DNA of 32,883 nucleotides from Candidatus Methanomethylophilaceae archaeon (lineage in GTDB: Archaea; Thermoplasmatota; Thermoplasmata; Methanomassiliicoccales; Methanomethylophilaceae). The notes beneath the pieces were generated by a model, which saw only the letters and a program-made list of their open reading frames with translations, was not told where the DNA came from and did no database searches. Shown piece by piece: positions 11,232 through 21,360 of the stretch. The number at the start of each line of letters is the position of its first letter. Position 1 is the stretch's first letter. The DNA is taken from the NCBI GenBank assembly GCA_017540825.1, contig JAFYAH010000006.1:1-32883 (forward strand), in the 5' to 3' direction. The translations under genes and the position numbers were made by a program.

Positions 11232-11290
11232 ATACATCCAACAATGATTAAATGTTTATTATTATTTTCAAAAAATAATCTTGGATGTAT
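11232..11290. promoter_or_regulatory. Inverted repeat, candidate operator of the uptake locus
   Basis: ATACATCCAA (11232-11241) and its exact reverse complement TTGGATGTAT (11281-11290) are separated by 39 AT-rich bases. The second arm ends about seven bases before the TATA box. The core TGGATG/CATCCA recurs as a tight inverted repeat at the promoter of the ABC ATPase (16714-16728), suggesting a shared regulator. The repeat is plain in the sequence; the role is inference. Confidence 0.5.
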
Positions 11291-11296
11291 AGCATA

Positions 11297-11305
11297 TCTT
11301 TATAC
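11297..11305 (+). promoter_or_regulatory. TATA box for the tandem binding protein
   Basis: TCTTTATAC lies about 55 bases upstream of the ATG. Transcription would start near 11328, giving a short leader that holds AAGGTGGG (11340-11346) as the ribosome-binding site. Confidence 0.5.
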
Positions 11306-11355: not shown

Positions 11356-14300
11356 ATGGAAAAGAACAAGATGATAGCGATCATCGTCGTTGCTATCGCG
11401 ATTATTGCTGCGATAGCCGCTGCGGTGGTCCTCACATCGGGGAACGGCAACGACAGCAAGGACGTCAAAGTGAATGGCGTTGTGCTGAACCCTGCCACCC
11501 TGTCCCTCGAGGAAGGCGGCCAGGGAAAGCTTACCGTGACCGTCTCCCCCTCCAACGCGACTAACAAGAACGTCACCTGGTCCACCAGCAACGCCTCCGT
11601 GGCGACCGTCTCCAACGGGGTCGTCACCGCCAAGTCTCAAGGGACGGCGACCATCACGGTGACCACCGTCGACGGCAAGCTGGCCACCACATGCGACGTT
11701 ACCGTGGTCGGATCGTCCGTGGTCCCCGTGACCGGGATCGCGCTCGACAAGAGGACCATGGACCTCGAGAAGGGCCAGACCGGCACCATCGTCGCCACCG
11801 TCATGCCCGACAACGCGACCAACAAGACCATCAACTGGTCCACCAAGGACTCTTCCGTAGCGACCGTCTCCAACGGTGTCGTCACCGCGGTCGGAGCCGG
11901 GACCACCGACATCGCGGCCACGTCCGCGGACGGGAAGGTCACCACCCTGTGCCATGTCACCGTCACCAGCCCGGTCGAAGTCTCTACCATGGACGAGGCC
12001 ATCCTCAAGGTCTACGGGAACGTCAACGGGGACAAGGTCATCGACGCGAAGGACGTAGCCATCATCCAGTCCCTCATAGCCGCCGGCGCCAAGGCCACCG
12101 ACGCAAACAAGATGGCCGACGCCAACAACGACGGCGCCATCGACGCCAAGGACGTGGCGGCCGTCAACAAGATCATCGCCCGCGAGCCCACCACCATCTG
12201 GCACATCAACTACCACGACCAGGACAGCAACGGGACCATGGACGAGATCCTCGTGGAGACCCAGTTCCCGATCAGCTCCGTCATCATGACGGGCTCGTCC
12301 AACTCATTCCTGCTCATGTGGATGCTCGGGATAGTCGACGAGGTCAAGGGGGCCTGCTACAGCACCACCGTCGACACCTACTTCAGCGACACCTATCTGA
12401 ACACCGACAAGGTGAAGAAGCTGGGGTCCAAGTCCTACGAGATCCCCTTGGAGGACGGCAAGGCCGGGTCGTCCAACATAATCGCGGAGGAGAACGTCAC
12501 CGCAGTGATAACCGACTGGAACAGGACGTACATCTCCAACTGGCAGAGCTACGAGGCCATGGGCGTCGACGTCGTCAGGGTGGCCGCGGCCTCCGTGGAG
12601 ACGGACGTGTTCTCGCACGGGGCGCTCCTGCTCGGGCTCCTGTTCGGCAAGGTCGACAGGGCTGTCGAGCTCGTAGACTTCTACAACAACATCTATGCGC
12701 AGATCGACGCGAAGCTCTACAACGTCGCCGAGGCGGACAAGCCCGGGTTCGTCGCTTCCAGCACCACCGGCAGCCTCTCGGTCGGGAGCTCCGACTACAA
12801 CAAGGTCGGAACGATGGCGGGCGGAAGGTACGCGCTCGATGGCCTCGACTCCCAGGGCAGCTCGAGCGTCAAGATAGCGGACTATCCCCAGATCTACAAC
12901 ACCCAGCTGTACAACTTCGACTACATCCTGCACCTCAGGACAGGGAACTTCTATGCCGGCACCGTGGATGCCGACAAGCTCTGGAACGACTACACCTCGC
13001 CGTTCTCCGACTGGGAGAAGGGGACCGAGGGGCAGTACATCATCTGCGGAGGTATGCCCGTCCCGCTGAGGGCCGCATATGCGCTGACCGTCCTTCACCC
13101 CGAGCTCGCCAGCGTCGAATGGGCCAACGGACTGCACCAGCAGCTCGTGGACAAGTTCTTCAACGGAGACAAGCTCGACATCGCATCCATGGACTTCATC
13201 ATCCACAAGGGCGAGGGAGACTCCAGCACCGCTCAGCTGATGATCCTCGGCAATGCCAACGACGACGACACCATTGACAGCAAGGACCTCAAGATCGTCA
13301 ACGACATCATCGCCGGCTCCAAGAAGCTCTCCGACTTCCCCATGGCAGACGTCAACAACGACGGGAAGGTCGACTCCGCCGACGTCGACCTCCTGAACAA
13401 GATCATCAAGAGGGAGTCCACGACTCTGTACGTGGCCTGCCTCGGCGTCGACGGAAAGGAGACCGTCGTGGAGGTCAAGTATCCCCTGAGGAACGTCGTC
13501 ACCTACGCCACCAACATGCAGATGCCCGCCCTCTTCGCCAACGGCGGCCAGTACATCGCCGGATACTTCGCGTCCTCCTACGACGTCGCGGAGTCCTCCA
13601 TAAGCGCGTCCGCCGTCGACCTTAAGGGCAACCAGAGGCAGATCACCGACGAGGCCTGGGCTAACTTCACCGCCCTTGACGCCAAGCTCGCCTCCCAGGG
13701 AGGCATTGGAGCCGTCCTCGTCGACCACAGCGGAATCGCCCAGTTCACCGAGTCCCGCATGGCCGACCTCAAGGCATCCGGCATTCCGATGATCGACTAC
13801 ACGTCCGCCGACGCCGTCGACGAGCTGCAGACCGTCCTCACCCTAGGGTTCCTCTTCGGAGGCGACTGCGAGAAGGTCGGGCGCGACTACGCCAAGCTCG
13901 GATGGGACGTCAAGGAGAAGGTCCAGAGCGAGGTGTCCAAGATGTCATCCAGCGACCTGGTCTCCTACATTTGCGGGACCATGTACATCTACGTCTGCGG
14001 GCCCGACTCTTCTTTCAACACCACCGCGGCCACCGCGGGAGGGGTGCCCTACTCCACCCTGAACGCCGACTTCGCCTCGAAGTACACCAAGAACTCCACC
14101 AAGATGTCCTCCACCGAGGCGCTCTCCAACTACACCGACGCGGGAATCTTCATCAACAACCGCTCGATGGACTGGGGCCTCACCGCGGCCGAGAAGGCCG
14201 ACTTGATAAAGGACACCTGGGACCACAGCAACAGCGGCGTCTCTTCGAGGGAGTACTTCAAGGACTTCGAGGACAAGCTGGTCTACGTCGACAACCTGCT

Positions 14301-14484
14301 CCCCGGAGGGGTCAAGATCGCCTACATGGCCCACGCCATGTACGGGGACACCTTCACCAGGGAGTGGGCCGACGGCGTGCTCCAGAGCTACATAGACTGC
14401 GGCACCCTGCCTCTGGCCGGCCAGACCCTGGACACTGTCCTCGCCTACATAACCTTCGACGACTTCAAGGCCGTCTCAAACTGA
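11356..14484 (+). CDS. Exported tandem substrate-binding protein with BIG2 and dockerin-like domains
   Basis: A 1042-residue surface protein, likely the ligand-capture subunit of the ABC importer encoded next. In order: one N-terminal hydrophobic helix (about 6-26, no lipobox Cys), two BIG2 Ig-like domains (about 37-118 and 123-205; NVTWSTSNASVATVSNGVVTA in the first), and a dockerin-like pair of EF-hand loops (216-276, GNVNGDKVIDAKD and ADANNDGAIDAKD). Next come a first metal-chelate-type binding module (278-620), a second EF-hand pair (628-688, GNANDDDTIDSKD and ADVNNDGKVDSAD) and a second binding module (690-1042). Binding modules are called from weak family resemblance (ISSVIMTGSSNSFLL, RNVVTYATNMQM) and from context with FecCD permeases. 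The ligand is unknown; a metal chelate, siderophore or corrinoid is likely. Many NxS/T sites fit an external location. Start supported by AAGGTGGG upstream. Confidence 0.85.
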   Translation: MEKNKMIAIIVVAIAIIAAIAAAVVLTSGNGNDSKDVKVNGVVLNPATLSLEEGGQGKLTVTVSPSNATNKNVTWSTSNASVATVSNGVVTAKSQGTATITVTTVDGKLATTCDVTVVGSSVVPVTGIALDKRTMDLEKGQTGTIVATVMPDNATNKTINWSTKDSSVATVSNGVVTAVGAGTTDIAATSADGKVTTLCHVTVTSPVEVSTMDEAILKVYGNVNGDKVIDAKDVAIIQSLIAAGAKATDANKMADANNDGAIDAKDVAAVNKIIAREPTTIWHINYHDQDSNGTMDEILVETQFPISSVIMTGSSNSFLLMWMLGIVDEVKGACYSTTVDTYFSDTYLNTDKVKKLGSKSYEIPLEDGKAGSSNIIAEENVTAVITDWNRTYISNWQSYEAMGVDVVRVAAASVETDVFSHGALLLGLLFGKVDRAVELVDFYNNIYAQIDAKLYNVAEADKPGFVASSTTGSLSVGSSDYNKVGTMAGGRYALDGLDSQGSSSVKIADYPQIYNTQLYNFDYILHLRTGNFYAGTVDADKLWNDYTSPFSDWEKGTEGQYIICGGMPVPLRAAYALTVLHPELASVEWANGLHQQLVDKFFNGDKLDIASMDFIIHKGEGDSSTAQLMILGNANDDDTIDSKDLKIVNDIIAGSKKLSDFPMADVNNDGKVDSADVDLLNKIIKRESTTLYVACLGVDGKETVVEVKYPLRNVVTYATNMQMPALFANGGQYIAGYFASSYDVAESSISASAVDLKGNQRQITDEAWANFTALDAKLASQGGIGAVLVDHSGIAQFTESRMADLKASGIPMIDYTSADAVDELQTVLTLGFLFGGDCEKVGRDYAKLGWDVKEKVQSEVSKMSSSDLVSYICGTMYIYVCGPDSSFNTTAATAGGVPYSTLNADFASKYTKNSTKMSSTEALSNYTDAGIFINNRSMDWGLTAAEKADLIKDTWDHSNSGVSSREYFKDFEDKLVYVDNLLPGGVKIAYMAHAMYGDTFTREWADGVLQSYIDCGTLPLAGQTLDTVLAYITFDDFKAVSN

Positions 14485-14526: not shown

Positions 14527-15615
14527 ATGAACTACAACGGGAATACCGACAAGGAGTCCGTGATAAGCGAGTATCATCGCCAGATCGCCAGGAAGCTCCT
14601 GGTGCTGGCGCTCTGCGTGATCGGGATCGTCCTCTTCGTCGGCCTGCTCTCGCTGTGCGTCTATGACAACATGACCCTGGCCGAGGCCTACGAGGTCATA
14701 TGGAACCACATCACTGGGCAGCCATACGAGCCTCGCAGCAGGTTCTGGTGGGCGGACCGCTACATCTGGAACACCGCCATGCCCCATGCGATCGTCGCCA
14801 TACTCGCAGGCGCGTCCCTCGCGGTCTGCGGGACACTGATGCAGGCCATCATGGGCAACCCTCTCGCGGACCCCTACAGCACCGGCATATCGTCCGGGGC
14901 GTGCTTCGGCGCCGTCGCCGCCATAGTCGTCGGGATATCGTTCGCAAGCGTGGCCAGCGAGGTCGGGCTGGTGACCAACGCGTTCATCGGGGCCCTGGTG
15001 CCTGCGGGCCTGATAATCCTGATCTCGTCCAAGATACGCATGACCCCCGCCACTCTCATCCTGCTGGGGACCGCGATATCCTACTTCTTCAACTCTATGA
15101 TCACCTACCTCATGGTCACCACCGACGCCGACACCCTGAAGAGCGCCTACATGTGGCAGATAGGCAGCCTGGACGGCATGTCCTGGAGCTACATCCCCCT
15201 CATGCTGGCGGTCACCGTCCTGGGCTCCGCGTTCGTGATGCTGATGTCGAGGAAGCTCAACGTGATGTCCCTCGGCGAGAACAGCGCGACCAGCCTGGGG
15301 ATAGACGTCCAGCGCTTCCGCACGATCTGCCTGGTCATAATGGCCTTTATGACAGCCTCCATCGTCGCCTTCACCGGCATCATAGGTTTCGTCGGGCTGG
15401 TGGCCCCGCATCTCGTGAGGCTTCTCGTAGGGTCCGACAACAGGTTCGTCATGCCCATCTCGATGGCGGTCGGCGCTCTGTTGCTTCTCATAGCGGACTA
15501 CCTGGCCTACCAGCTGTCTAACATCCCTGTAGGGGTCGTGATGAGCATCATCGGAAGCCCCGTGTTCCTGCTGCTGATAATGTACCATACAAGAAAGGCG
15601 GGTGCGCTGTATTGA
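14527..15615 (+). CDS. FecCD/BtuC-type ABC importer permease, first copy
   Basis: Membrane subunit for uptake of a metal chelate, siderophore or cobalamin-type ligand. The 362-residue protein has about nine to ten hydrophobic helices and the family stretches GASLAVCGTLMQAIMGNPLADPYSTGISSGA (split here at residues 98-128), LNVMSLGENSATSLGID (the ATPase-contact region) and GFVGLVAPHLVR. An extra hydrophilic N-terminal tail of about 25 residues precedes the first helix. Start ATG is preceded by AAGGATG. Its stop overlaps the start of the second permease (TTGA at 15612-15615), so the two are translationally coupled. It differs clearly from the second copy, suggesting a heterodimeric pore, since BtuC-type importers need two permease subunits. 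Confidence 0.93.
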   Translation: MNYNGNTDKESVISEYHRQIARKLLVLALCVIGIVLFVGLLSLCVYDNMTLAEAYEVIWNHITGQPYEPRSRFWWADRYIWNTAMPHAIVAILAGASLAVCGTLMQAIMGNPLADPYSTGISSGACFGAVAAIVVGISFASVASEVGLVTNAFIGALVPAGLIILISSKIRMTPATLILLGTAISYFFNSMITYLMVTTDADTLKSAYMWQIGSLDGMSWSYIPLMLAVTVLGSAFVMLMSRKLNVMSLGENSATSLGIDVQRFRTICLVIMAFMTASIVAFTGIIGFVGLVAPHLVRLLVGSDNRFVMPISMAVGALLLLIADYLAYQLSNIPVGVVMSIIGSPVFLLLIMYHTRKAGALY

Positions 15616-16676
15616 TCGTCGATTCCGTAGCCGTCAAAGGCGAGTACGTATCCGGCAACAGGAGGAGGGTCCTCTGGACGCTGTCGTTCGTCGTGCTGGC
15701 GCTGGCGCTGTTCTTCGTGACCCTCGGTTTCGGGGTGTTCAAGATATCCGTGGTCGACGCGATAGCCGTGTTCTTCGACCATATCCTCGGGAACTACGTC
15801 GACCCGAGGGCGGACGTCTACGTATGGGACACCCGCGTGCCTCGCGCGCTGGGCGCCGTCATAGCCGGCTCGGGCCTCGCCGTGGCCGGAGTCGTTATGC
15901 AGAACGACTTCAAGAACCCCCTTGCGGAGCCCTACACGATGGGGATATCGTCAGGAGCTTTCCTCGGGGCGACGCTGGGGATAATAATGAACATATCGGT
16001 GGTGCCGTTCGTCCCCGCCGGCAGCCAGGTGGTCGCCAACGCCTACGTGTTCTCGCTGATACCCGTAGCTATAATTGCGCTGTTCTCCAAGTTCAGGAAG
16101 CTGACCCCGATGAGCATGATCCTCACGGGGATAGCCGTGATGTTCCTGTTCAGCTCCATCAGCCAGATCCTCATGGTGACCGCGCCCTCCGAAAGCCTCG
16201 CGGACGCGTATGCATGGAGGGTGGGGTCCCTGGACAGGGTGCGCTGGGACGCGGTCCCGATGATGGCAGGATCCACGATCCTGCTGGGCGTCCTGCTCTA
16301 CATGTTCGCAGGAAGGCTCAACGTGATGTACGTCGGCGACAGGAGCGTCAAGACCCTGGGTGAGAGCCCGATGTTCATTCGCCTGGCCACGATGATCCTG
16401 GCGTCCCTCCTCACCGCAGGGATAGTCTCGTACACCGGGACCATAGGCTTCATCGGCCTGGTGGGACCGCACGTGGCCCGCATCTTCATAGGCTCCAACA
16501 ACCGCTATCTGATTCCCGCTTCCGCGGCTTTCGGAGCGGCCTTCATCCTGTTCGCGGACACCGTGGCCAAGGTCTCGGGCATAAACGGACTTCCTGTGGG
16601 CGTCATAAGCTCCATGGTGGGCGGCCCGCTGTTCATCTGGATACTGATCAAGCAGAGGAAGAACGTATGGGCCTGA
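15612..16676 (+). CDS. FecCD/BtuC-type ABC importer permease, second copy
   Basis: Second membrane subunit of the same importer, 354 residues with about nine to ten helices. Family motifs are GSGLAVAGVVMQNDFKNPLA, LNVMYVGDRSVKTLGE (coupling region) and TGTIGFIGLVGPHVAR. The start is a TTG inside the previous stop (TTGA), with AAGGCGGGTG just upstream; no ATG occurs near enough to give a full-length protein, so TTG initiation is well supported. The ATPase gene follows after 64 bases and has its own TATA box. Sequence similarity to the first permease is family-level, not that of a recent duplication. Confidence 0.92.
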   Translation: MIVDSVAVKGEYVSGNRRRVLWTLSFVVLALALFFVTLGFGVFKISVVDAIAVFFDHILGNYVDPRADVYVWDTRVPRALGAVIAGSGLAVAGVVMQNDFKNPLAEPYTMGISSGAFLGATLGIIMNISVVPFVPAGSQVVANAYVFSLIPVAIIALFSKFRKLTPMSMILTGIAVMFLFSSISQILMVTAPSESLADAYAWRVGSLDRVRWDAVPMMAGSTILLGVLLYMFAGRLNVMYVGDRSVKTLGESPMFIRLATMILASLLTAGIVSYTGTIGFIGLVGPHVARIFIGSNNRYLIPASAAFGAAFILFADTVAKVSGINGLPVGVISSMVGGPLFIWILIKQRKNVWA

Positions 16677-16693: not shown

Positions 16694-16702
16694 TTTTATA
16701 TC
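16694..16702 (+). promoter_or_regulatory. TATA box for the ABC ATPase
   Basis: GTTTTATATC lies in the 64-base gap after the second permease, about 40 bases before the ATG at 16741. It implies the ATPase can be transcribed independently of the permeases. Confidence 0.5.
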
Positions 16703-16713
16703 TCGCATTCATA

Positions 16714-16728
16714 TGGATGTTGCATCCA
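16714..16728. promoter_or_regulatory. TGGATG-TTG-CATCCA inverted repeat, candidate operator
   Basis: Perfect 6-bp arms around three bases, lying about 15-25 bases after the TATA box and so over the expected transcription start. Binding here would block the ATPase transcript. The same hexamer forms the core of the inverted repeat before the binding protein (11232-11290). Confidence 0.5.
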
Positions 16729-16740
16729 GAAGGTGATCTC

Positions 16741-17583
16741 ATGGAGCTGAGGATAAAGGACGTGTGCTTCTCGTACTCCAGCGTGCCTGTGCTGAAGGAC
16801 GTCTCTTTCGATCTGGGCGGGAACGAGCTGGTGTCCATACTCGGCCCCAACGGGGTGGGGAAGTCCACTCTCATCCATTGTATCAACAAGATACTCGCTC
16901 CGACTTCCGGGACGGTGCTCATAGACGGGAAGGACGTGTCGGAGATAAAGCTCAAGGAGCTCGCCAAGCAGATCGGGTACGTGCCGTATTCGGCCAACGA
17001 CTCCTTCCCGCTCTCGGTCATAGACACGGTGATGATAGGGAGGCATCCGCATAGCAGGTGGGGGACCCTGGACAAGGACCTGGACATCGTGTACGATACG
17101 TTAAGGATGCTCGGCATATCGCATCTGGCCATGAGGGCGTTCAACGAGCTCTCGGCGGGGCAGCACCAGAAGGTCATGCTCGCCCGCGGTCTGGTTCAAG
17201 AGCCCGAGATACTCCTTCTCGACGAGCCGACCTCCAACCTGGACGTGAGGCATCAGCTGGACGTCACCAAGATGCTGAGGAGGCTTTCGAGGGAGAAGGG
17301 CATCCTAATCGTCATGATAAGCCACGACATCAACATCGCCGCGAAATACTCGGACAAGATCATCCTGATGCACGAAGGTTCCGTCTACGACATAGGGACG
17401 CCGAACGAGGTGATCACCGCGGACAATCTGCGCACGGTGTACGGCGTCACCGCGGAGATAACGAAGGACGACGACGCGCCGCATGTGATCCTCAAGGACG
17501 CGCTGCCGATGGACGAGGATTGCGAGGAGGCCTCGGAGAAAGCGGTCCCCTCGGTCGAAGGGAAGACGGACGCAGCGGTATGA
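16741..17583 (+). CDS. ABC transporter ATPase of the FecE/BtuD type
   Basis: Energy-coupling subunit for the two FecCD permeases, 280 residues. Walker A is GPNGVGKST (35-43), the signature is LSAGQ, Walker B is ILLLDEPTS, and the switch His is in ISHD. The Q-loop region (GYVPYS) departs slightly from the common form. A C-terminal acidic tail of about 30 residues follows the conserved domain. The ATG at 16741 is chosen because GAAGGTGA sits six bases upstream and MELRIKDVCFSY is the usual start; the frame is also open from 16717. It converges on the winged-helix gene with only 17 bases between stops. Confidence 0.95.
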   Translation: MELRIKDVCFSYSSVPVLKDVSFDLGGNELVSILGPNGVGKSTLIHCINKILAPTSGTVLIDGKDVSEIKLKELAKQIGYVPYSANDSFPLSVIDTVMIGRHPHSRWGTLDKDLDIVYDTLRMLGISHLAMRAFNELSAGQHQKVMLARGLVQEPEILLLDEPTSNLDVRHQLDVTKMLRRLSREKGILIVMISHDINIAAKYSDKIILMHEGSVYDIGTPNEVITADNLRTVYGVTAEITKDDDAPHVILKDALPMDEDCEEASEKAVPSVEGKTDAAV

Positions 17584-17600: not shown

Positions 17601-17909
17601 TCAGCGCTCTTTGGAGTCCTTGTTGCGGAGGCACGATTCTATCGCCCTGAGCATGTTCGCGACGTTCTCCCCTTCCGGAGTCAGGTCGACGAATATCTTG
17701 AACGGCTTCACGTTCTCGCGAGTCTCGACCACGAGCCCCGCTTCGACGAGCTCCTCCACTCTCGCCTGCACCGTCGATGTCCCTTTGGCTATGCTTCTGG
17801 CCAGGTCGCCCTTCATCATGGGCCCGTTCTCGTTCAGAATCATCAGGATCTTCACCGTATGGGTGTTCTCCAGTATGCTCGCTTTGTATTCCGCTCCCAT
17901 GTTGTGCAT
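17601..17909 (-). CDS. Winged-helix transcriptional regulator (ArsR/MarR-like)
   Basis: A 102-residue DNA-binding protein made of one winged helix-turn-helix domain. HTVKILMILNENGPMMKGDLAR (split: helices 1-2 near residues 17-38) leads to the recognition helix KGTSTVQARVEELVEAGLV and a beta-wing ending FVDLTPEGENVANML. No ligand-binding domain or metal-site cysteines are visible. The ATG at 17909 lies about 20 bases after CTATAATT on the minus strand, so the transcript is probably leaderless; an ATG three codons on is possible. Convergent with the importer ATPase, it is a natural candidate for local control of the uptake genes, but this is inference from position. Confidence 0.85.
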   Translation of the reverse strand: MHNMGAEYKASILENTHTVKILMILNENGPMMKGDLARSIAKGTSTVQARVEELVEAGLVVETRENVKPFKIFVDLTPEGENVANMLRAIESCLRNKDSKER

Positions 17910-18513
17910 TACTACTTACTGATGAATTATAGTTATCTCTATAGAAAACAGTATACATGAGTAAGACTTCTTTGTTCGTTTTGGATGGAGTATGGGGAAA
18001 TAATCGATAATATCAATACATGAGTCGCAATTTCATATTTATTAGCTAATCGCTGTGCTTCTACAACATACCATATAGTATCAATCCTGAAAACCAAAAC
18101 TGATAACGATGTCTGCAGATACTCACTTCGGATCCCGATTCTTCCAGCAAGCATGCAGTCGGAACCACCCGATGAAAGGACACAGGGGGCATTTCGGCAA
18201 CCGGCCGTATGCATTAGCAATCTGGAACCAGCGACGGAGGGAATGCTGAAGGATTCGAACGTCAGCAGCGCACGAGAAGAGTCATGAATACTTGATTGCT
18301 GTTTTTTGAATAAACGATGAATCCATGAGATCTATGATGGTCCGAATAAAGCCGAATAATCAACAATTGCCTCATGTTTAATATGTTATGCTACGATACA
18401 TATCAAGGCAGTTTCGTTTTCGGCGTGTTAGAATCCAGAGATCGAAGCTTTATGAGTAAATTCTTGATTATTGAAAAGAAGAAATCAATACAGACAAGGA
18501 AACAAGTGGTAAT
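17910..18513. other. Long AT-rich intergenic region without a recognisable gene
   Basis: About 600 bases separate the regulator from the BspA-like gene. The DNA is markedly AT-rich compared with all flanking genes. A 93-codon minus-strand frame (17939-18220) has no ribosome-binding site, no recognisable protein features and AT-driven composition, so I do not call it. The segment holds the regulator promoter (minus-strand CTATAATT at 17925-17932), a TATACAT/TTGGATG pair (17952-17987), and presumably the promoter of the downstream gene. No tRNA or clear repeat was found. Confidence 0.6.
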
Positions 18514-19059
18514 ATGAGCATGAATGAAACAGTCGATCTGCGCACAGGTTCGAAGATCGTGGAGACAGTCGCTTTCGCAGTGCTTCTCTTGGCGCTGATC
18601 TCTGCGATATCGCTTTCCGCTAGCGACAGCGAGGCGGCAGGAGAGACTTCTGGGACCTGCGGAGACACTCTTGTATGGTCTATAGAGCCAGCCACAGGCC
18701 ATCTCACCATCGTAGGAAGCGGCGATATGTATGAATACGGGTCGGGGTCAGGGTCTACTAACTGGAATTACACCGTCAGGTCCGTGTCTCTTCCAGAAGG
18801 GCTGACGTCCATAGGAAAATATGCGTTCAAGTATTGTACAGAATTGGTCTCCATCTCCATACCGTCAAGCGTCTCCATAATCGATAACGGGGCGTTCATC
18901 GGATGCTCGAGTCTGGGCTCTGTCACCATATCTGACTCGGTGACGAGCATAGGCAAAGACGCCTTCCGCAAGTGCTCTTCCCTGACCTCTGTCTCCATAG
19001 GGAGGAACGCCGCACTAGGCTATGGCGCCTTCGCGGAATGCCCGAAAGCCACCAGCCTG

Positions 19060-19338
19060 TACTACAACTCCAGCGCCATGACAGGGTTCGGCAACGCCAG
19101 CACGATGACGTTCGCCGGCTTCGGGACCCAGGGGAACGGCGTGGCCGTCACCTTCGGCGAAAACGTGACCCTGGTGCCCAAGTGGATGTTCAGGGGCGCC
19201 GGATACGTGACCTCCGTGGAGTTCTCCGACTCCGTGGAAACGATAGGCGTCGGCGCTTTCAAGGACCAGACCGGGCTCACCTCGGTGTCGTTCCCCAGCA
19301 GCGTCGAGACGATCAGCTCCGACGCGTTCAGAGGATGC
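19060..19338 (+). repeat. Internal direct repeat, copy 1
   Basis: A 279-base unit of the BspA-like gene, beginning TACTACAACTCCAGCGCCAT and ending at GGATGC, nearly identical to 19491-19766. Differences are a few substitutions and one codon. Confidence 0.85.
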
Positions 19339-19490
19339 TCGGGGCTCAGGTCGATAACCATCCCGGACACCGTGAAGACCGTCGACAGCTTCGCGTTCTC
19401 CGAATGCTCTTCCCTCACCAGCGTTTCGGTGGGAAAGGCCGCCTATCTGGATACGGGGCCCTGTCCAAGTGCTACAATGCCACTACCCTC

Positions 19491-19766
19491 TACTACAACT
19501 CCAGCGCCATGGCAGGGTTCGGCAACGTCGGCACGATGACGTTCGCCGGCTTCGGGACCCAGAGCGGAGTAGCCGTCACCTTCGGCGACAACGTGACCCT
19601 GGTGCCCAAGTGGATGTTCAGGGGCGTCGGATACGTGACCTCCGTGGAGTTCTCCGACTCCGTGGAAACGATAGGCGTCGGCGCTTTCAAGGACCAGACC
19701 GGGCTCACCTCGGTGTCGTTCCCCAGCAGCGTCGAGACGATCAGCTCCGACGCGTTCAGCGGATGC
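19491..19766 (+). repeat. Internal direct repeat, copy 2
   Basis: A 276-base near-copy of 19060-19338, one codon shorter. It lies just after the first frameshift, so the two copies are in different reading frames of the given sequence. Recent duplication is likely. Confidence 0.85.
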
Positions 19767-21208
19767 ACAGGGATGGAGTTTATGGAATTCCCCTCAAGCC
19801 TCTCTTCTTTAGGCAGCTATGCCTTCAGGGGCATAGAGTTCTACGACGGCGAAACTCCTCTAAGCCATACAGTCTCCAATCTGGCTGGTCGCACATTCGT
19901 CATGATCGACGGCAAGCTGAGCGTGCGCACAGTGCCCGCTGTCGATACGATCTTCAACGACGGCACTTTGAAATACTCGGTGACGTCCAGCAGCCCCCTC
20001 GCTGTTTCTGTCATAGGGTTCGAGAACGCGACTAAGAACTTGGTCATACCGGACGAGGTCTACTACAGGGGCTTCGATATTCCAGTGAAGTCCATATCCA
20101 AGCAGGCGTTCTATGGATCCGACACAATAGTGACTGCGGACCTGGGCAGCGTCACGTCCGTGGGAGTCAAGGCCTTCGCCAACTGCACCAAGCTCAAGTC
20201 CGTATCGGTCGGAGATTCTCTTAAGACCATCAGCGCATACGGGTTCTACAGGTGCGTCAGGTTAGTTGACATAGACCTCGAGAGCTCTGCCAAGACCATG
20301 AACGCGATAGGGTCGTTCGCATTCTACAAGTGCGAGAAGCTCGCCGCCATCGCGATACCCTCCTATGTGAAGACCATCGGCGACGACCATCCGTTCAGCC
20401 AGGCTTTCGCAGATACCAAGGGCAACGCTCTGGATGTCCTGCCGGAATCCCTGAGGGGTTACGTATACAGGAACGTGGACGGGGTGTTCGTCCGCCAGGC
20501 AGGGCCCGAGGTCGGCCATCCGTTTTCGTGCGGAAATCTCCACTACGAAGTGATCGCCTCCCTTCCCGCCGAGGCGATGATCACAGGGTACACCGGCACC
20601 GTGAAGGCACTCGTCGTTCCGGACAGCGTTGAAGACGAAGGATACGTCTACGATGTCGTGGCCATAGGGGACTATGCCTTCAACGGAAACAAGAGCCTCA
20701 GATCCGCGGACCTCTCAGGCATCGAGAGGATAGGCAAGCAGGCGTTCTACTCCTGCACCGCCCTCAAGACCGTGAAGATGGAGGACGTCAGGAGCATAGG
20801 GGTGAAGGCCTTCGCCTACTGCTCCGCCATGACCGAGGCGGATGTGGGGGAAGGCCTGAAGACGATCAGCGCCTACGCGTTCACCAAGTGCAGGTCTCTC
20901 CAGAGCTTCGAGTTCCCCGACTCCGTCAAGACCATCGGATCCTACGCCTTCTACAAGTGCTCCGCGCTTCAAGGCGCCGACCTAGGGCCCATGGTGAAGA
21001 CGATCGGGTCCTACGCCTTCGCGTCCTGCCCCTCGATCTCCGAGGTCTCCTTGCCGTCGGCGCTGAAGAAGCTAGGATCGACCTCCTTTAGTGGCCTGGT
21101 CTTCCAAGACGCCGACGGGAACGTCTTGAAGCAACCGCCAAGACCCTCCGCGGCCACAGCTACTCCGGAACAGGCGGGATACTCGTCATGGACTCCTGAG
21201 CTAAACAC

Positions 21209-21226
21209 GGGGCTTCGGCCCCTTTC
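21209..21226 (+). terminator. UUCG-loop terminator after the BspA-like gene
   Basis: GGGGC (21209-21213), loop TTCG, GCCCC (21218-21222), then TTTCC. It lies ten bases after the TGA at 21197-21199, supporting that TGA as the original stop. Confidence 0.65.
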
Positions 21227-21352
21227 CTATTGTGATCTCTATCGAATTACGAATCGCAGACTACAGGTTCGTTCTTCAGATTGTGCGAAGGCATCTCTCG
21301 TCCTTCATCTACGCATCGTTTCCAGCGATGTCTCGTGCTTGCACACGGCTTC

Positions 21353-21360
21353 TGTATAAA
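21353..21360 (+). promoter_or_regulatory. TATA box for the AAA-ATPase/nuclease-like gene
   Basis: TGTATAAA lies 24 bases before the ATG at 21384, the spacing of a leaderless archaeal transcript. Confidence 0.5.

Follow-up and report, generated by a model that had tools for sequence, protein, structure and literature searches.

We propose that the palindrome TGGATG-TTG-CATCCA, which lies in front of the ATPase gene of an importer operon in a Candidatus Methanomethylophilaceae archaeon, serves as operator for a transcription factor governing a cobalamin/corrinoid regulon in the Methanomassiliicoccales, and that a DUF4443-DUF2111 protein is the best candidate for this factor. We put the probability of this reading at roughly two in three. 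In what follows, the window is the whole stretch of DNA that was analysed, 32,883 nucleotides in length. The relatives compared with it belong to the Methanomassiliicoccales and Candidatus Methanomethylophilaceae, and most of them are rumen or gut metagenome assemblies.

The Palindrome and Its Locus

The operon encodes an ABC importer of the FecCD type, whose presumed binding protein is large and has Big_2 and dockerin domains (Table 1). Since this protein has no match to Peripla_BP_2 at E 0.001, its role is assigned by gene order and by likeness to other loci. The protein has two dockerin stretches besides Big_2, and similar dockerin-bearing binding proteins are present in many related loci. 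The best NCBIfam model for the ATPase is that of a heme ABC ATPase, at a score under the model's cut-off. Elsewhere in the window, positions 18514-21359 encode a leucine-rich-repeat-like surface protein; its frame appears to shift near 19455, a point flanked by two repeat blocks that resemble each other.

Table 1. Coordinates of the features discussed, given as positions of the window.
Feature	Position	Strand	Basis or remark
Large secreted protein, presumed binding protein	11356..14484	+	Big_2 + Dockerin_1
First FecCD permease gene	14527..15615	+	FecCD 7.9e-81; BtuC models under cut-offs
Second FecCD permease gene	15612..16676	+	FecCD 3.7e-77
TATA-like TTTATA, presumed ATPase promoter	16695..16700	+	read from sequence
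Palindromic operator (putative) TGGATG-TTG-CATCCA	16714..16728	.	exact match, genome count against control, inexact orthologous counterparts
FecCD-type ABC ATPase gene	16741..17583	+	ABC_tran 3.6e-32
Small winged-helix gene, earlier candidate regulator	17601..17909	-	HTH_24 2e-05, HxlR 0.0002
Half-site ATACATCCAA upstream of the binding-protein gene	11232..11241	-	G018 also has CATCCA upstream, at a different distance
Half-site TTGGATGTAT directly upstream of TTTATA 11299-11304	11281..11290	+	present in G018, absent from G001

The palindrome described in the earlier note is indeed there: TGGATGTTGCATCCA is the sole exact match within the window, where base composition predicts 0.0015. When up to two mismatches are allowed, two matches are found against 1.63 expected, so that within the window only the exact palindrome is unusual. 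The single hexamer TGGATG is frequent (33 in the window against 21.5 expected). In the window's genome (2.37 Mb), TGGATGN3CATCCA occurs exactly twice, compared with none for the reversed control and 0.11 expected. The second site (contig C35) has a phosphoglucomutase-like gene on one side and a small gene with no known function on the other, an arrangement that recurs in genome G018.

Given the TTTATA upstream and the predicted ATPase start codon downstream, the palindrome covers the expected transcription start of the ATPase gene, as had been claimed. The ATG stands 12 nt downstream of the palindrome, with the ribosome-binding-like AGGTGATC between them. It had also been claimed that two promoters of the locus share the palindromic hexamer. 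This holds for the half-sites, of which two lie upstream of the binding-protein gene; 41 nt separate their hexamers, and a tight palindrome does not occur there.

In the three closest relatives, the gap between the second permease gene and the ATPase gene contains TGGATGCGATATCCA (G002), TGGACGCGACATCCA (G001), and AGGATAGGAAATCCA (G018), inexact palindromes that all lie 12 nt upstream of the ATPase ATG. When the four orthologues are aligned, the right half ATCCA is identical in all and the left TGGA in three; the exact palindrome is found in none of the three orthologous loci, and the upstream flanks are poorly conserved. At many of the more distant paralogous loci, the ATPase gene comes directly after the permease gene, so the separate ATPase promoter looks like a feature of the window's clade.

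Recurrence of the Motif

Among the 31 genus genomes, TGGATGN3CATCCA is found at 62 sites, against one for the reversed control; 24 genomes have it and seven do not. The commonest centre is ATA/TAT, present at 25 of these sites. The longer form TTGGATGN3CATCCAA occurs 139 times in the 120 order genomes (control 0, expected 0.35) and is carried by 62 of them, and a strict 19-base form occurs 35 times in the order genomes, against none for the control. The window's genome has no copy of the longer form, which makes the 16714 site a weaker member of the set. In the 69 sites of seven fully listed genomes, the spacings N3 (17), N7 (12), and N1 (10) lead, all others having at most 7. A scan of the phylum found the exact motif to be sparse outside the order, with a match in 104 of 295 genomes and the order genomes richest. 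Over-representation against the control and partial conservation at orthologous promoters are thus both found for the palindrome, and we regard it, with considerable confidence, as a putative regulatory operator.

Genes beside the Sites

The genes looked for beside the sites were those for FecCD transport, chelatases (CobN, CbiX, CbiK), corrinoid proteins, nitrogenase-like proteins, CbiZ, and class II RNR. By blast, such a gene starts within -15 to +200 nt of 34 of the 62 genus sites and of none of the 11 control-spacing sites, a comparison that is partly circular because some reference proteins were taken from the same loci, and in which the 62 include orthologous sites common to related genomes. 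With that reservation, genes of B12 uptake, synthesis, salvage, and use are found at the sites, which in most cases stand a short distance upstream of a start codon. Two of the 34 are generic exporter-type ABC genes (L091, L092) and one is ambiguous (L114); the remaining 28 sites have no listed gene alongside. Since nine of the 11 control sites were flagged within a reading frame, they are a control for the link between motif and gene, not for intergenic position. At N6/N7 sites, a listed gene is present at three of ten (two corrinoid proteins and one DUF4443).

The Pfam families beside the genus sites include fusions of NifH with nitrogenase component 1 (Oxidored_nitro), CbiZ, CobN, CbiX, CbiK, and B12-binding; a hydantoinase-type protein adjoins one of the B12-binding corrinoid proteins. 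A ribonucleotide reductase (RNR barrel), whose gene is cut by the contig end, has the adenosylcobalamin-dependent NrdJ as its best model. In other families of the order, the neighbours include CbiA/GATase_3, CobB/CobQ-like, and periplasmic binding proteins and also CbiT-like and CobD-like genes, the last two recognised by sequence and weak Pfam matches only. We also examined 13 sites of the window's genome that have one or two mismatches to TGGATGTNACATCCA. For four of them, a relevant gene starts no more than 200 nt away, namely cbiK, a nitrogenase-like gene, and two genes for binding proteins; three others have binding-protein or FecCD/ATPase genes within 3-kb loci; and six have no such link, one of them having only a distant aminotransferase match. 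We therefore consider it likely that the regulon serves the corrinoid and cobalt economy.

These results bear on two further claims. Random placement, unconnected with transport or metal genes, had been named as the outcome that would speak against regulation; the genome scan gave the opposite, sites linked to just such genes. The idea of a common local regulator survives in part: the regulatory site is shared and tied to FecCD-type uptake, but a local regulator is not supported.

Several recurring arrangements at the sites deserve mention. Fused NifH and nitrogenase-component-1-like proteins are repeatedly found (L077, L089, L104, L111, L120, and L012 in the window's genome) beside FecCD transporters or CbiZ, and perhaps they act in tetrapyrrole reduction. 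In G018 (L087) and G001 (L122), a conserved small protein of about 95-107 aa begins right at the palindrome; the L122 copy has no Pfam match. A palindrome variant with a GCG/CGC centre precedes a circularly permuted ATP-grasp gene in G014 (L081), and G015 (L102) has the same variant in an apparently similar place. In G353 and G364 (L198, L199), the palindrome is followed by a multi-zinc-ribbon gene and then by a short DUF4443-type gene.

In family f6 (L163, L184), the palindrome lies between a Fur-family gene and a divergent CobB/CobQ-like gene; this arrangement is present at the site in G049, and a similar one in G323. The Fur family was considered as the general regulator and rejected, the G049 protein as query matching in none of the 31 genus genomes at E 1e-5.

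A Candidate Regulator

A winged helix-turn-helix profile search through the site loci gave weak matches that led to the DUF4443 family, and five site loci in other families carry DUF4443 members with a PH0730-like winged helix. The family is present in 119 of the 120 order genomes and has two forms, a short one (194 aa) and a long one of about 320 aa, which includes DUF2111. The window's genome has six DUF4443 matches, with an HTH together with DUF4443 in the L252 and L291 proteins and the DUF4443-DUF2111 protein at C57:10962-11252. Of the seven genus genomes without the exact site, all five that were sampled have DUF4443. Being near-universal, and present also where the exact site is absent, the family is not singled out as the binder by its distribution alone.

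The promoters of the two forms differ. Of 39 long-gene promoters, 29 have TGGAT-N5..9-ATCCA, mostly with N9, where resampling gives a mean of 0.05; the palindrome is found in none of 31 short-gene promoters. In 80 named loci, which overlap the 39 genomes, the long-gene promoter has TGGAT-N9 (or N5)-ATCCA in 54. Two of the 39 long proteins, which have no stop, were left out of the protein set, as were three proteins of less than 300 aa from the alignment of the 80 loci. The site begins 3-7 nt past the TATA centre in 25 of the 29 promoters, and in all 29 its end is 1-7 nt upstream of the ATG; judged by its position in the sequence, this placement is that of a repressor site. At the target sites the placement is loose, with the TATA 4-23 nt upstream in 16 of 27 (26 hand-chosen target loci plus the window, oriented). 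The spacing between TGGAT and ATCCA also differs, being mostly N9 at the autoregulatory sites and mostly N5 at the targets; two genomes of f6 have the 15-base form at the long gene itself. At least seven of the 35 strict 19-base sites coincide with located long DUF4443 genes. The promoter of the long gene in the window's genome (L252) has no palindrome, and the same is true of five loci of genus g23, which are most of g23, and of a few others.

The neighbourhood of the long gene is well conserved. In 76 of the 80 loci (L403, L322-L401; C57 in the window's genome), it is divergent to an AtwA-like gene (methyl-CoM reductase component A2), and in 50 of the 80 it is followed by a DUF6951 gene. The AtwA-like protein scores 461.6 bits with TIGR03269 against a cut-off of 517.1, a shortfall attributed to its frame being cut by the locus end.

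The DNA-binding domain of the long protein matches Pfam CggR_N at 1.5e-10 and, by phmmer, CggR-type proteins (PDB 7oyk, 8r3g) at 9e-05. The long protein was modelled with AlphaFold2 as its SIG7 orthologue (pLDDT 84.8, pTM 0.62), and the model resembles PH0730 (2p8t; Z 19.6, rmsd 2.9, 176 residues), which by sequence is the only solved homologue with the matching domain pair, and also MarR/CggR winged helices. Its middle part is similar to one of the domains of AspRS from bacteria (1efw; Z 11.6, rmsd 3.1, 115 residues). The fold of DUF2111 alone is like that of GAF, PAS, and Cache sensor domains (Z about 8; the best match has Z 8.3, rmsd 3.1, 96 residues). This suggests ligand sensing, although a fold match of this middling quality may reflect only a common arrangement. 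That the DUF4443 family binds the operator seems to us a little better than an even guess, and TGGATGATACATCCA and the 16714 site would be the predicted targets of the DUF4443-DUF2111 protein.

Alternative Explanations

Could the palindrome be something other than an operator? The hexamer TGGATG is itself common, so a chance palindrome is easily imagined, but the enrichment in the genome, the genus, and the order and the orthologous positions contradict this, and we find chance hardly credible. The sequence is also able to form a 6-bp hairpin in the RNA leader. This is the least probable reading of all, for the leader folds no better than shuffled sequence (z -0.09), the hairpin arms show no compensatory conservation in the four orthologues, and at the autoregulatory promoters the site lies between the TATA box and the start codon, a stretch unlikely to be transcribed. 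A cobalamin riboswitch was likewise rejected: the window and nine loci (10 sources, 85,891 bases) contain no Rfam cobalamin match at the gathering score. The earlier note had pointed to the protein encoded at 17601-17909 as the regulator. Its gene is adjacent and convergent, and G018 has an 88% identical orthologue at the same locus; yet there the palindrome is degenerate, whereas G001 has a better palindrome and no winged-helix gene at the locus, its nearest homologue (57% identical) being on another contig. The contig of G002 ends before the gene's place and thus says nothing on presence. Of 60 genomes searched, only four yielded homologues with 57% identity or more, so the motif is present in many genomes without a close homologue. 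Because the gene does not travel with the motif, its product is unlikely to be the regulator, and even a role confined to the window's locus is very improbable. The partial sites TATACAT (17952-17958) and TTGGATG (17981-17987), cited as a sign of its autoregulation, are present and form no palindrome.

If an operator for corrinoid genes is accepted, the same operator and regulon may still have another binder, such as the short DUF4443 paralogue of 194 aa or some other factor. The short class is equally widespread and, in G037 and G048, is found next to 15-base sites; in G353 and G364, the second gene behind the site encodes a related short protein; and the target and autoregulatory sites prefer different spacings. 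On the other side are the short-gene promoters, all without the palindrome, the fact that in G037 and G048 the site lies 3' of the short gene, and the 15-base form at the long gene itself in the two f6 genomes; we consider this alternative unlikely. Another possibility is that the regulon concerns nickel/F430, iron, or redox and that the transporters carry other metal chelates. CbiX and the NifHD-like proteins have F430 models among their matches, though with scores under the cut-off, the best ATPase model is heme, and one site has a Fur-family gene. As proteins of both kinds also serve nickel-F430, and as the long DUF4443 gene has an AtwA-like neighbour, nickel, F430, or redox could be the signal. 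But CbiZ, CobN, the B12-binding corrinoid proteins, the RNR of the B12-dependent class, and the CobB/CobQ-like proteins are corrinoid-specific or corrinoid-using, and a regulon for another metal or for redox thus appears distinctly unlikely.

A Proposed Model of Corrinoid Control

It is tempting to sketch how the proposed corrinoid regulon may work. From the position of the sites, control at the putative operator is probably repressive. The acting regulator would be the DUF4443-DUF2111 protein, with its CggR/PH0730-like winged helix and GAF/PAS-like C-terminal domain. A dimer would bind the two TGGATG half-sites and, once bound, block RNA polymerase or TFB at the start. Plentiful corrinoid would keep the genes off and a shortage would turn them on, and the 16714 operator would set the ATPase separately from the permeases. 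In most relatives, the protein would also regulate itself through the same half-sites at its own promoter. A response to the imported ligand, as proposed in the earlier note, is plausible, with corrinoids as the predicted ligand. A bolder form of the model, which we put forward tentatively, is that one autoregulated DUF4443-DUF2111 repressor, using TGGATG half-sites in two spacings, controls the whole corrinoid economy of the Methanomassiliicoccales, by which we mean uptake, ring building, salvage, and the corrinoid methyltransferase proteins.

Relation to Known Systems

The bacterial cobalamin riboswitch regulons likewise co-regulate genes for B12 uptake, synthesis, salvage, and use; unlike them, the element here is a DNA palindrome at the promoter. 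In 2003, a comparative study by Rodionov et al. reportedly put forward a CBL-box as the site of a hypothetical regulator of B12 genes in certain archaea. The likeness lies in a promoter-level site, in archaeal B12 genes, and in a regulator without a name, and the CBL-box may be the same motif or another. PH0730 of Pyrococcus horikoshii also combines a winged helix with a DUF4443 domain; it differs in having no DUF2111 and is listed as a hypothetical protein. The DNA-binding domain is like that of CggR-type proteins, but by Pfam the rest of the DUF4443-DUF2111 protein is not the SorC sugar-binding domain.

According to the accessible part of one study, the Methanomassiliicoccales are rich in BtuFCD/FecCD importers (BtuC-type) and make methane from methyl compounds via corrinoid enzymes (PMC10804542). 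The window's operon belongs to this importer family, and its putative binding protein, with dockerin and Big_2 domains, sets it apart from the importers as they are presented in that part, which does not treat their regulation. Within the accessible text of the literature on archaeal B12 regulators, the CBL-box, and DUF4443 (including PMC10804542, PMC8123684, PMC8305020, and PMC3403918), we found no description of the motif or the protein, nor, for archaea without B12 riboswitches, of corrinoid sensing by a named protein. To our knowledge, the DUF4443-DUF2111 family is uncharacterised.

Since there is a defined operator, a list of targets, and one candidate family, the corrinoid-regulon reading is directly testable. 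If it is true, the DUF4443-DUF2111 repressor would fill the place of the B12 regulator that has been missing for archaea, and its AtwA-like neighbour may tie B12 supply to the activation of methyl-coenzyme M reductase. For DUF4443 and DUF2111, it would be the first functional hint.
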